NCBI GenBank assembly: GCA_017456845.1
Contig: JAFTIP010000019.1
Span: 1-53,056 of the forward strand
Origin: Ruminococcus sp.
GTDB taxonomy: Bacteria; Bacillota; Clostridia; Oscillospirales; Acutalibacteraceae
DNA: 53,056 bases
Reading direction: 5' to 3'
The notes below the pieces were generated by a model. That model was not told the DNA's origin, did not search any database, and saw nothing but the letters and a program-made list of their open reading frames with translations. Each line of letters begins with the position of its first letter. Position 1 is the stretch's first letter. Of the stretch, positions 1,396 to 27,968 are shown piece after piece. A program made the position numbers and the translations under genes.

Positions 1396-1704
1396 TTAAT
1401 TAGCAGACAAACGCACGCTTGATGTGCTGGATTGTCTGTATGCCCAACAAAAGCCCTCAACATTAAGGTTGATGGTAACAGGCACATCTACATATTTATT
1501 TTCGTCCAAGGGTTTATCCGCAAGATTTACTGATTCAAAATCGAATATTATATCTACCTTTTCGGGGTCAATTTCAGCAAGAGCAACCTTTGTTCCTACT
1601 ACAACAATACTGAAATTATCGGGAATATCACAATTATACCCAGATGGAAGATTTTCAACAGCGCAACGTTCTGCAGGAACCTCAAAGGTTTCGGTATTTA
1701 AGGA
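1396..1704 (-). pseudogene. In-frame C-terminal continuation of the YbbR/CdaR gene beyond an internal TAA
   Basis: After the TAA at 1705-1707 the same frame stays open for 102 codons to a TAA at 1396-1398. It encodes SLNTETFEVPAERC, then NLPSGYNC and VVVGTKVALAEIDPEKVDI, ending RLSAN. The pattern of a phrase like TETFEVPA followed by LP-x-GY is what YbbR repeats show, so this is the last YbbR repeat. It begins exactly where the upstream product stops. The terminator sits immediately after it. I read it as the severed end of one 426-codon gene, not a separate gene. A nonsense mutation, a sequencing error or stop-codon read-through would each explain it. Confidence 0.8.
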
Positions 1705-2676
1705 TTAAAAATCAAGCCTATATCTGATTTTTTCTATACCGTCACTTTTATTAATCATATCAGAGCCTAAAACGTCAGCAACGTCAGCAGTAAAGTTATA
1801 ACTCTCGTTTTTATACTGTGAAATTCTGCCTATATCAAGAGGCAACGATAAAAACTCACCGTTATTGTCGAGTGATGATTCAGGAATTGCAACGTTAAGA
1901 CTTGTAGGACTTGTTGAAAAATAATTATCGCTTATTAAAATACCTTCATCATTAACAACACTGAAAGGTACGCTTTCCTTTAGCAACAGATATTTAAATG
2001 TTACGTCAACGTTACTGTAGCTAAGCTTTATATACTCATTATCAATAATTTTAGCGTCAGGACTCTGAGGGTCCTCGTTATCATAAAGAGTGATTTTGTA
2101 GTTATTTGTAACCGTATCAGAGTTTCTCGAAGTAACATTGCCGCCGATATAAGCACATTTAACCTGATTTACATAGCTTTCCGGGCCGCTAACCTCTACA
2201 GTTTCGGGCACGTTATTATCTACATAATAGCCTACGGGGGAATAAGTAAAATTATACTTAACCTCTACCGTTTTAGTCATAGGTCTGTCTATCATAAGGG
2301 TTATATTGGACGGCTCAACTCTGGTAATATCGAGATTTAAGTTTTCAGAACATTTAACGTTAACATTAAAGCTTTTCTCACCAGACTCACTAACACCGGA
2401 AAGGTCAACCGTAGCATTGAAATTTTCGGCACTTAAAGCATCAACGGCAACACGTTTGCCGTCTACTGTTACGGAGACAAAATCGTTACTGGAGCTGAAA
2501 ATCTCAAACTCCTGAGAAACCGACTCAGGCAAATTATACTTTACGGGAACATCTATGAATGTTTTTGTGATGTTATCAGCAGTAAGAATCCAAAAAATGA
2601 AAGCAAAAACCAACGATGCAATGAAAAGAACCTTTTTGTTAGTTAAAAATCGGCTGAAGAGAGACTTATTTTTCAT
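1705..2676 (-). CDS. cdaR: YbbR-domain protein, regulator of CdaA (truncated by in-frame TAA)
   Basis: In Firmicutes this membrane-anchored extracellular protein binds and modulates the diadenylate cyclase CdaA. One N-terminal membrane segment (residues 17-34, VLFIASLVFAFIFWIL) precedes tandem YbbR repeats, recognisable from phrases such as DVPVKYNLPES and VEVSGPESYVNQVK. The chosen ATG at 2674-2676 has AGGAGG ten bases upstream. A start at 2700 is possible in frame but has no Shine-Dalgarno. The start overlaps the end of cdaA by 11 bases, as expected for the conserved cdaA-cdaR operon. The product stops at 323 residues, whereas the frame continues for another 102 codons, so the last YbbR repeat is lost unless the TAA is read through or is an error. 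Confidence 0.85.
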   Translation of the reverse strand: MKNKSLFSRFLTNKKVLFIASLVFAFIFWILTADNITKTFIDVPVKYNLPESVSQEFEIFSSSNDFVSVTVDGKRVAVDALSAENFNATVDLSGVSESGEKSFNVNVKCSENLNLDITRVEPSNITLMIDRPMTKTVEVKYNFTYSPVGYYVDNNVPETVEVSGPESYVNQVKCAYIGGNVTSRNSDTVTNNYKITLYDNEDPQSPDAKIIDNEYIKLSYSNVDVTFKYLLLKESVPFSVVNDEGILISDNYFSTSPTSLNVAIPESSLDNNGEFLSLPLDIGRISQYKNESYNFTADVADVLGSDMINKSDGIEKIRYRLDF

Positions 2677-3553
2677 CTTTCTTTGACCTCCTTTTAGCAA
2701 CTCTCTTTAATCTGTCGGCAGGCTTATCAGGCTCTTCGGGAATTAAAAGTTTCTGCAAATCAGATACAAGCTGGTCACGCTCTAAATTGCGTTTAAGAAC
2801 ACCGTCCACCGCCATAGATATAATGCCCGTTTCTTCTGAAACTACAACTACCACAGCATCTGACACTTCAGAAACGCCTAAGGCGGCTCTGTGGCGTGTG
2901 CCTACACCTGTGTAGCGGATTTCATTGCTGTTTAGAGGAAGAATACAGCCTGCGGCATAAACTTTTCCCTGACGGATAATACAGGCACCGTCATGAAGAG
3001 GAGCTTTGTTGAAAAACAGGTTTCCGAAAATTGCAGTTGAGGTCTGAGCGTTAAGCTCAGTACCTGTGGCAGCAATATCAGTAAGATGAGTTTCTCTTTC
3101 GAAAACGAAGAGAGCTCCTGTTTTAGTGTGGCTGAAAAGAATGGCGGAATCAGCCACATCAACAATGGATTTATAAATATCCTCTCTCTCAGCGTCGGAC
3201 AATAACCCGCCCTGAAAAATCATTTTATAGGTTTTTGCAAACTTACTTCTGCCCAATTGCTCAAGAGCCTTACGGATTTCAGGCTGGAATACAATAACAA
3301 TAAGCACTACTGCCGATTCAAAAACTACTTTAATAATGGTTGTAACCATCATTAAATCAAGAATCATCGCAAAAACGTAGATTACAAAAATAAACAAAAG
3401 ACCCTTTAAAAGCTGTTCGGCTCTGGTGTCTCTGATAAGCTTTAATACACTGTAGATGAGTAACGAAATAAGCAAAATATCAATAAGGTCATTGAACCTG
3501 AAGGTACTCATCAAAGCTATGAAATTATTAAACCATTCAGCAATAATCTGCAT
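2666..3553 (-). CDS. cdaA: Diadenylate cyclase CdaA
   Basis: This enzyme makes cyclic di-AMP from two ATP. It is membrane-bound and controls osmolyte transport and cell-wall homeostasis in Firmicutes. Three N-terminal hydrophobic helices lie within residues 10-90. The DAC domain follows, with the diagnostic DGA motif in FNKAPLHDGACIIRQGK and the RHR motif in GTRHRAALG. Length (295 residues) is near the family norm. The ATG at 3551-3553 has GGAGG seven bases upstream. A start nine codons earlier is in frame but lacks a ribosome-binding site. It has its own promoter and is co-transcribed with cdaR. The usual third partner, glmM, is not seen next to it. Confidence 0.95.
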   Translation of the reverse strand: MQIIAEWFNNFIALMSTFRFNDLIDILLISLLIYSVLKLIRDTRAEQLLKGLLFIFVIYVFAMILDLMMVTTIIKVVFESAVVLIVIVFQPEIRKALEQLGRSKFAKTYKMIFQGGLLSDAEREDIYKSIVDVADSAILFSHTKTGALFVFERETHLTDIAATGTELNAQTSTAIFGNLFFNKAPLHDGACIIRQGKVYAAGCILPLNSNEIRYTGVGTRHRAALGVSEVSDAVVVVVSEETGIISMAVDGVLKRNLERDQLVSDLQKLLIPEEPDKPADRLKRVAKRRSKKDEK

Positions 3554-25900: not shown

Positions 25901-26644
25901 TTAAACACCGCCGTATCTGCGATTTCGTGTAGAAAATTCAGCGATTGCCTCATCTAAATCGTCAGTTGTAAAATCAGGCCATAATTTATCGCTGATGTAA
26001 TATTCGGCATATGCCGATTGCCACAAGAGAAAGTTGGAAATTCTGAACTCACCGCTTGGACGGATTATAAGGTCTGGGTCAGGCTGACCTGCAGTATAAA
26101 TTGAATCAGAAATAAGCTCTGCATTAATATCATCAACAGAAAGCTCACCGTTTTTAACCTTTTCGGCAATCTTCTTGGTAGCAGTAACAAGCTCATCTCT
26201 GCCGCCATAATTCATGGCGATATTTAAAACCATACCTTCCCTATCCTTAGACTCTTCTTCATTTTCATTAATAAGAGCCTGAAGCTTTGGGGAAAATGCA
26301 GTTCTGTCGCCTAAGAATTTAACAACGATTGTGTCATCTTTAAAATCCCTTAAAGCTTCGTTGAGGTATTCCTCAAAGAGCTTCATAAGGGCATCTACCT
26401 CTTCCTGGGGGCGACGCCAGTTTTCGGTAGAGAAGGCATAAACCGTAAGATGCCTGATGCCGATATCGGAACAATAACGTGCAATTTTACGAAACGTTTG
26501 TGCACCGGCAGAGTGACCCATACTGCGTGGCAATGCACGCTTTTTAGCCCAACGGCCATTACCATCCATTATAATTCCGATATGAGCAGGCAAGTTTTGG
26601 GGCAATACCTGCTCTTTATCCTTTTTTTTCGAAAACAAAGCCAT
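25901..26644 (-). CDS. uppS: Isoprenyl transferase (undecaprenyl diphosphate synthase)
   Basis: This cis-prenyltransferase extends farnesyl diphosphate to the undecaprenyl carrier used for peptidoglycan and teichoic acids. The 247-residue protein shows HIGIIMDGNGRWAKKR near residue 22 (catalytic Asp), then TVYAFSTENWRRP and DLIIRPSGEFRISNFLLWQ. The gene starts one base after the frr stop codon, so translation of uppS is probably coupled to frr. That makes the internal stop in frr relevant here as well. Confidence 0.96.
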   Translation of the reverse strand: MALFSKKKDKEQVLPQNLPAHIGIIMDGNGRWAKKRALPRSMGHSAGAQTFRKIARYCSDIGIRHLTVYAFSTENWRRPQEEVDALMKLFEEYLNEALRDFKDDTIVVKFLGDRTAFSPKLQALINENEEESKDREGMVLNIAMNYGGRDELVTATKKIAEKVKNGELSVDDINAELISDSIYTAGQPDPDLIIRPSGEFRISNFLLWQSAYAEYYISDKLWPDFTTDDLDEAIAEFSTRNRRYGGV

Positions 26645-26645
26645 A

Positions 26646-27200
26646 TCAGATAGCCATTACTTCCTTCTGCTTTTCAGCACAAATTTCATCAATCTTCTTT
26701 GTAAATTTGTCTGTAAGCTTCTGGATTTTTTCCTGACCGTTCTCAAGGTCATCTTCTGTAATCTCGGAGTTTTTCTTCATCTTCTTAAGCTTTTCGATAG
26801 CATCTCTACGCTCGTTACGAACCTGAACCTTGCTATCTTCAGCCTGCTTGGATACATCCTTAACGATTTCCTTACGCTTATCCTCAGTAAGAGGAGGGAA
26901 AGTAAGACGGATGATTTTGCCGTCATTCTGAGGATTACTGCCGATATCAGATGTCTGGATAGCTTTTTCTATAGCTCTTAATACCGATGCGTCGTAAGGC
27001 TGAATAGAAAGTGTGCGAGCCTCTGTTACTGAAACAGCGGCAAGCTGCTTAACGGGAGTGGGAGCTCCGTAATAATCTACAACAAGCTTATCAAGAACAG
27101 CAGGGTTTGCTCTGCCTGCTCTGATTCTTGCTTATTCGCTTTCAAGATGATTTATGCGTCTCTGCATAGATTCTTCAGCATTTTTAATAACTGTATTCAT
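26646..27200 (-). pseudogene. frr: Ribosome recycling factor with in-frame TAA at codon 23
   Basis: The frame from the ATG at 27198-27200 (AAGGAG upstream) to the TGA at 26646-26648 spans 185 codons, the exact family length. After the first 22 codons (ending HLESE) it has TAA at 27132-27134, then continues as a perfect RRF: ARIRAGRANPAVLDKLVVDY, YGAPTPVKQLA, RLTFPPLTEDKRKE, and a tail ending KQKEVMAI. RRF splits post-termination ribosomes with EF-G and is essential in bacteria tested. Position 23 is usually Leu, Tyr or Phe in relatives, and the stop would break the first helix of the three-helix bundle. Neighbours pyrH and uppS are at normal spacing. Sequencing error, a real nonsense mutation or recoding are the options. 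Confidence 0.93.
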
Positions 27201-27218: not shown

Positions 27219-27932
27219 TTAGTTTTTATTAGTTACGAGTGTGCCCACAGGCAAACCACAAACAGCTTCGTAAATATTCATAGGATTCTCGATGGAAAGA
27301 ACCATAATATCAATATCGTTTTCTCTGCACATTGTAGCGGCTGTGCCGTCCATAACTGCAAGCTGCTTTTCTACAACCTCGTCAAATGTAAGCTGATCAT
27401 ACTTAACAGCATTAGGATTCTTCTTCGGATCACAATCATAAACACCATCAACCATTGTGGCTTTAACGATAATATCAGCCTCAATCTCGGCGGCACGAAG
27501 AGCTGCTGCTGTATCAGTTGAAAAGAAGGGGTTACCTGTACCGCAACCGAAAACAACCACTCTTCCCTTTTCTAAATGCCTAATAGCCTTGCCGCGGATA
27601 TAAGGCTCGGCAATTTCACGCATTGAAATGGCAGTCTGAACGCGGGTATCAACGCCTAACTGCTCTAAAGCATCGCAAACGCCTAAAGCATTAATAGAAG
27701 TAGCAAGCATACCCATATGGTCGGCCCTTGTTCTATCCATGTTACCTGAGCTTCTTCCTCTCCAGAAGTTACCGCCGCCCACTACAATGCCGATTTCAAC
27801 ACCTAACTCAACACACTTCTTTATAGGCTCGCAGATTTTAAGTACTGTATCAAAATCGATACCTGTTTTTTGTTCACCTGCAAGGGACTCGCCCGAAAGC
27901 TTAAGCAAAATACGCTTATATTTAGCCTGCAT
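27219..27932 (-). CDS. pyrH: UMP kinase
   Basis: PyrH phosphorylates UMP to UDP and is hexameric, of the amino-acid kinase fold. The 237-residue protein has [12 protein letters not shown] at its start, [11 protein letters not shown] near residue 52, [11 protein letters not shown] and the [16 protein letters not shown] loop near 137. ATG at 27930-27932 is preferred, with GAGGTG six bases upstream; a GTG three codons earlier overlaps that site. It is the first gene of the pyrH-frr-uppS-cdsA-dxr-rseP-ispG-polC run and has its own promoter. Confidence 0.97.
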
Positions 27933-27968
27933 AGTAATCACCTCGTAAACTTATATTTAATCACATTA

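Follow-up and report, generated by a model that had tools for sequence, protein, structure and literature searches.

prfB carries an early in-frame stop codon and is expressed through programmed frameshifting. The frr gene considered here, which encodes ribosome recycling factor (RRF), resembles it in that it, too, belongs to the termination and recycling machinery and has a stop early in its frame, but differs in that no frame shift is needed or seen and in that the stop is not conserved. In family score, pyrH-frr-uppS gene order, purifying selection and match to RRF structures, the gene is like ordinary bacterial frr/RRF (PF01765, TIGR00496), from which it departs by a TAA at codon 23 that occurs, among the loci examined, in the present assembly only. 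RRF is termed essential in two reports (PMC10192219, PMC4404585). A further report (PMC6785717) treats isolated gene breaks as a sign of assembly error; there, as here, a conserved gene is cut short while its remainder is intact, but that case concerns indels of long-read assemblies, whereas the present one concerns single-base differences.

The window, that is, the whole stretch of 53,056 nucleotides analyzed, lies in a draft genome (G000) that totals 1,787,063 bases over 62 contigs, with a completeness of 93.03% and a contamination of 2.64%, and that is probably metagenome-assembled. The gene, its stop and its neighbors are located as follows:

26646..27200, minus strand: frr, ribosome recycling factor, 185 codons counting both stops, broken at codon 23
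27132..27134, minus strand: in-frame TAA, frr codon 23, TAT (Tyr) in the two nearest species
27219..27941, minus strand: pyrH, intact neighbor of frr (TIGR02075, 304.9 bits)
25901..26644, minus strand: uppS, intact neighbor of frr (PRK14830, 329.6 bits)

The first-pass annotation had described an in-frame TAA at codon 23 of a 185-codon frame that is intact on both sides, between a normal pyrH and a normal uppS. In the sequence as given, the TAA is indeed present at 27134..27132, the codon count is correct when both stops are included, and the profile scores of the two neighbors indicate intact genes. The ATG of frr (27200..27198, minus strand) is preceded by AAGGAGA, and past codon 23 the frame stays open until a TGA at 26648..26646. 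Against the whole gene, the PF01765 profile scored 223.2 bits and aligned over positions 2-164 of its 164, spanning one TAA, so that a full-length family match goes together with an interrupted reading frame. The portion 3′ of the TAA scored 221 bits on its own against the Pfam RRF family (E 1e-65) and 209.2 bits against NCBIfam TIGR00496 frr (cut-off 149.1), and it matched solved RRF structures from about residue 26 of those chains. Since the 22 residues ahead of the stop are also conserved in the nearest relatives, the TAA does not merely lie 5′ of the true start. A product ending at codon 23 would comprise these 22 residues. Rescue by an internal restart was rejected: in a search with ATG, GTG and TTG starts, the longest in-frame open reading frame past the TAA spanned 44 amino acids and was the sole one of at least 20.

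The remainder of the gene is well preserved. With codon 23 excluded, dN/dS between the window's frr and that of the nearest species, G086, was 0.041, which shows strong purifying selection on frr and bears out the earlier statement that the gene shows no decay elsewhere. Either the stop arose very recently or it is not real.

We then compared codon 23 across relatives. Among 161 genomes of the genus (own included), the closest by DNA over the pyrH-frr region were G086 (86%) and G070 (83%), both with TAT at codon 23, one base from the TAA of the window. A frr match was obtained in 144 of the 161 genomes, and the 30 best loci from this search were examined at codon 23. In total 141 loci were examined, two of them the window itself; the other 139, in which some genomes are represented twice, all carry a sense codon (Tyr 60, Phe 71, Leu 7, Met 1). 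Sense codons in relatives are what the first-pass annotation had said would speak against the stop, and this is what was found at 139 of 139 loci, the result extending to these loci. The TAA is thus unique to the present assembly among the loci examined, and the conservation expected of programmed recoding is not seen. Besides the window's row, the protein alignment held 118 distinct rows, and two residues of the window's row occur in no other: the stop and Ser 88. Relatives by frr included strains of R. bromii at 74 or 75% protein identity. No conspecific copy was recognized in the best 80 of 310 named loci, nor in viral contigs, where in both cases records of the present genome or of one very near it may be omitted; plasmid records yielded one frr, a distant one from Monoglobus.

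A search for comparable breaks elsewhere in the assembly covered 437,656 bases, made up of the window and 20 further stretches, which were scanned for adjacent open stretches in the same frame. Stops were verified by family searches of the pieces and by comparison with relatives, and at least four further isolated in-frame stops in conserved genes were identified:

1705..1707, minus strand: in-frame TAA in a YbbR-domain gene (about 2706..1399), Ser in the nearest relative; homologues uninterrupted in both nearest species
L184:80-82, plus strand: stop in an M29 peptidase gene running off the contig end, Glu in the nearest relative
L192:5696-5698, plus strand: stop in a glycerophosphotransferase-like gene, Tyr in the nearest relative
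L197:10038-10040, minus strand: stop in proB, Glu in the nearest relative

Each of the four lies one base from the codon of the nearest relative. The in-frame scan had returned 14 candidates, and the 12 examined by family comprised four broken genes, seven pairs of different genes and one candidate (L185) with a family on neither side. The sensitivity of the scan is limited, since frr itself was missed by it. Similar isolated breaks, at least four in the 437,656 bases, are present elsewhere in the assembly, as would be expected of consensus error. A similar scan of G086 (277,780 bases) and G070 (211,018 bases; 488,798 in total) gave no verified stop and one possible one. For this control, candidates were considered when the first start lay at least nine codons past the stop, which left 8 of 26 in G000, 2 of 22 in G086 and 1 of 6 in G070. 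The eight from G000 included four broken genes and one pair of different genes; of the two from G086, one proved to be a pair of different genes, and position alone led to the other being read as two genes; the one from G070 consists of DUF4364 followed by 80 codons without a family, and may or may not be a broken gene. Compared with the controls, the assembly shows a modest excess of stops (4 versus 0; a hand calculation based on the number of bases scanned gives p of about 0.05). When the window's genes were compared directly with those of G086 and G070, only frr and the YbbR-domain gene had internal stops. In all three genomes, stops in the first 44 codons of other open reading frames look like the product of wrongly extended starts, and long open reading frames with many stops appear to lie opposite real genes.

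Substitution patterns were examined as a further line of evidence. G:C to T:A changes account for four of the five stops, where a share of 0.25 to 0.34 would be expected, which is a weak hint of error; all five are transversions, an outcome that random substitution yields with a probability of 0.13 to 0.55. G:C to T:A changes also accounted for 17.4% of the private non-synonymous changes of a single base in the window's lineage (n = 161), compared with 11.6% in G086 (n = 181) and 11.2% in G070 (n = 285), again a weak hint only. Private non-synonymous change was not raised over 42 genes and 14,929 codons, N/S being 0.174 in the window's lineage versus 0.201 in G086 and 0.328 in G070. If all five stops were random errors, the rate would be 3 to 5 substitutions per 10,000 bases, and a rate of a few per 10,000 would hardly be visible in N/S. 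Three private stops were counted in the window's lineage: those of frr and the YbbR-domain gene, and a third that presumably belongs to a pair of stops near the starts of open reading frames.

Taken together, we consider it likely that the frr TAA results from one wrong base in the draft consensus. The base would then have arisen in sequencing or assembly rather than by mutation, and the cell itself would carry a sense codon at this site and make an ordinary RRF. Random consensus error fits because the stops are isolated, scattered in conserved genes of which one is essential, stand for differing amino acids and are absent from the relatives examined. Genuine pseudogenes could account for the other four stops, but hardly for that of frr. 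Error is the best explanation rather than a proven one, since the excess of stops is modest, N/S is not raised, and G070, with a contig title bearing cov_1.99, yielded no verified stop, so that thin coverage alone need not produce such stops. The TAA is accordingly most likely an artefact and possibly a real one-off mutation.

The latter reading, which we regard as unlikely though not negligible, holds that a very recent nonsense mutation arose in the strain or in part of its population, where it would be lethal unless made tolerable by a second frr or a suppressor tRNA encoded outside the assembled sequence, or by leaky read-through with a near-cognate tRNA. Rescue by another frr copy had been raised by the first-pass annotation and is disfavored: a profile search of the genome itself, which is 93.03% complete, gave one match only, and a second copy was rejected as a candidate on this basis. 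Related genomes point the same way, with one match free of internal stops in 54 of 58, no match in the other four, and hence a single match in each frr-bearing relative. The tRNA genes called at 30 loci include none with a UUA anticodon, and a suppressor tRNA was thus not found within a set that is itself incomplete, tRNAs for Cys, Ile, Phe and Trp being missing too. The lack of called tRNAs for these four amino acids in G000 is consistent with an incomplete draft. That same incompleteness leaves room for a second frr or a suppressor in the missing part, the other four stops could be ordinary pseudogenes, and N/S gives no sign of widespread error, all of which speak for a real mutation; against it stand the essentiality of RRF where tested, as stated in PMC10192219 and PMC4404585, and the undecayed state of the rest of frr. 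A wrong consensus base remains the preferred reading.

Programmed or regulated read-through of the UAA, akin to prfB autoregulation, is compatible with a frame intact on either side of the stop and with the place of frr in the termination and recycling machinery, but is very improbable, since the stop is absent from all 139 other loci, including those of the two nearest species, so that the likeness to prfB fails; no UUA-anticodon tRNA was found in the incomplete set, the RNA following the stop folds no better than its shuffles, and the five stops of the assembly correspond to Tyr, Ser, Glu, Tyr and Glu codons in the nearest relative. The 95 bases from the TAA onward gave a fold z of -1.15, with 20 of 200 shuffles equal or better, and a stimulating RNA structure was accordingly not seen in them. 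Because three different amino acids are involved, no single reassignment of a stop codon fits either. Among the papers listed in literature searches, none has a title that points to recoding in bacterial frr. The first-pass annotation had likewise seen no frameshift site and nothing that singles out programmed read-through, and both judgments stand: no frame shift is needed or seen at the TAA, and conservation, tRNA (within the incomplete set), fold and restart all give read-through no support. For comparison, the CTTTGAC motif was not found in three prfB-like loci, from which nothing can be inferred, as two of the three run to a contig end. In G000, prfB is split over two contig ends, L228 (G000:C6:3-491) covering profile positions 191-353 and L229 (G000:C45:1-573) covering 4-194.

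When a single draft shows a lone stop in an essential gene, the number of such stops elsewhere in the assembly needs to be taken into account. It is scarcely credible that the TAA is real and fixed in the species, with RRF made only by regulated or leaky UAA read-through and recycling capacity feeding back on frr via termination efficiency. Should the TAA prove real and fixed, the production of an essential recycling factor across a stop codon would offer a striking example of feedback on translation.
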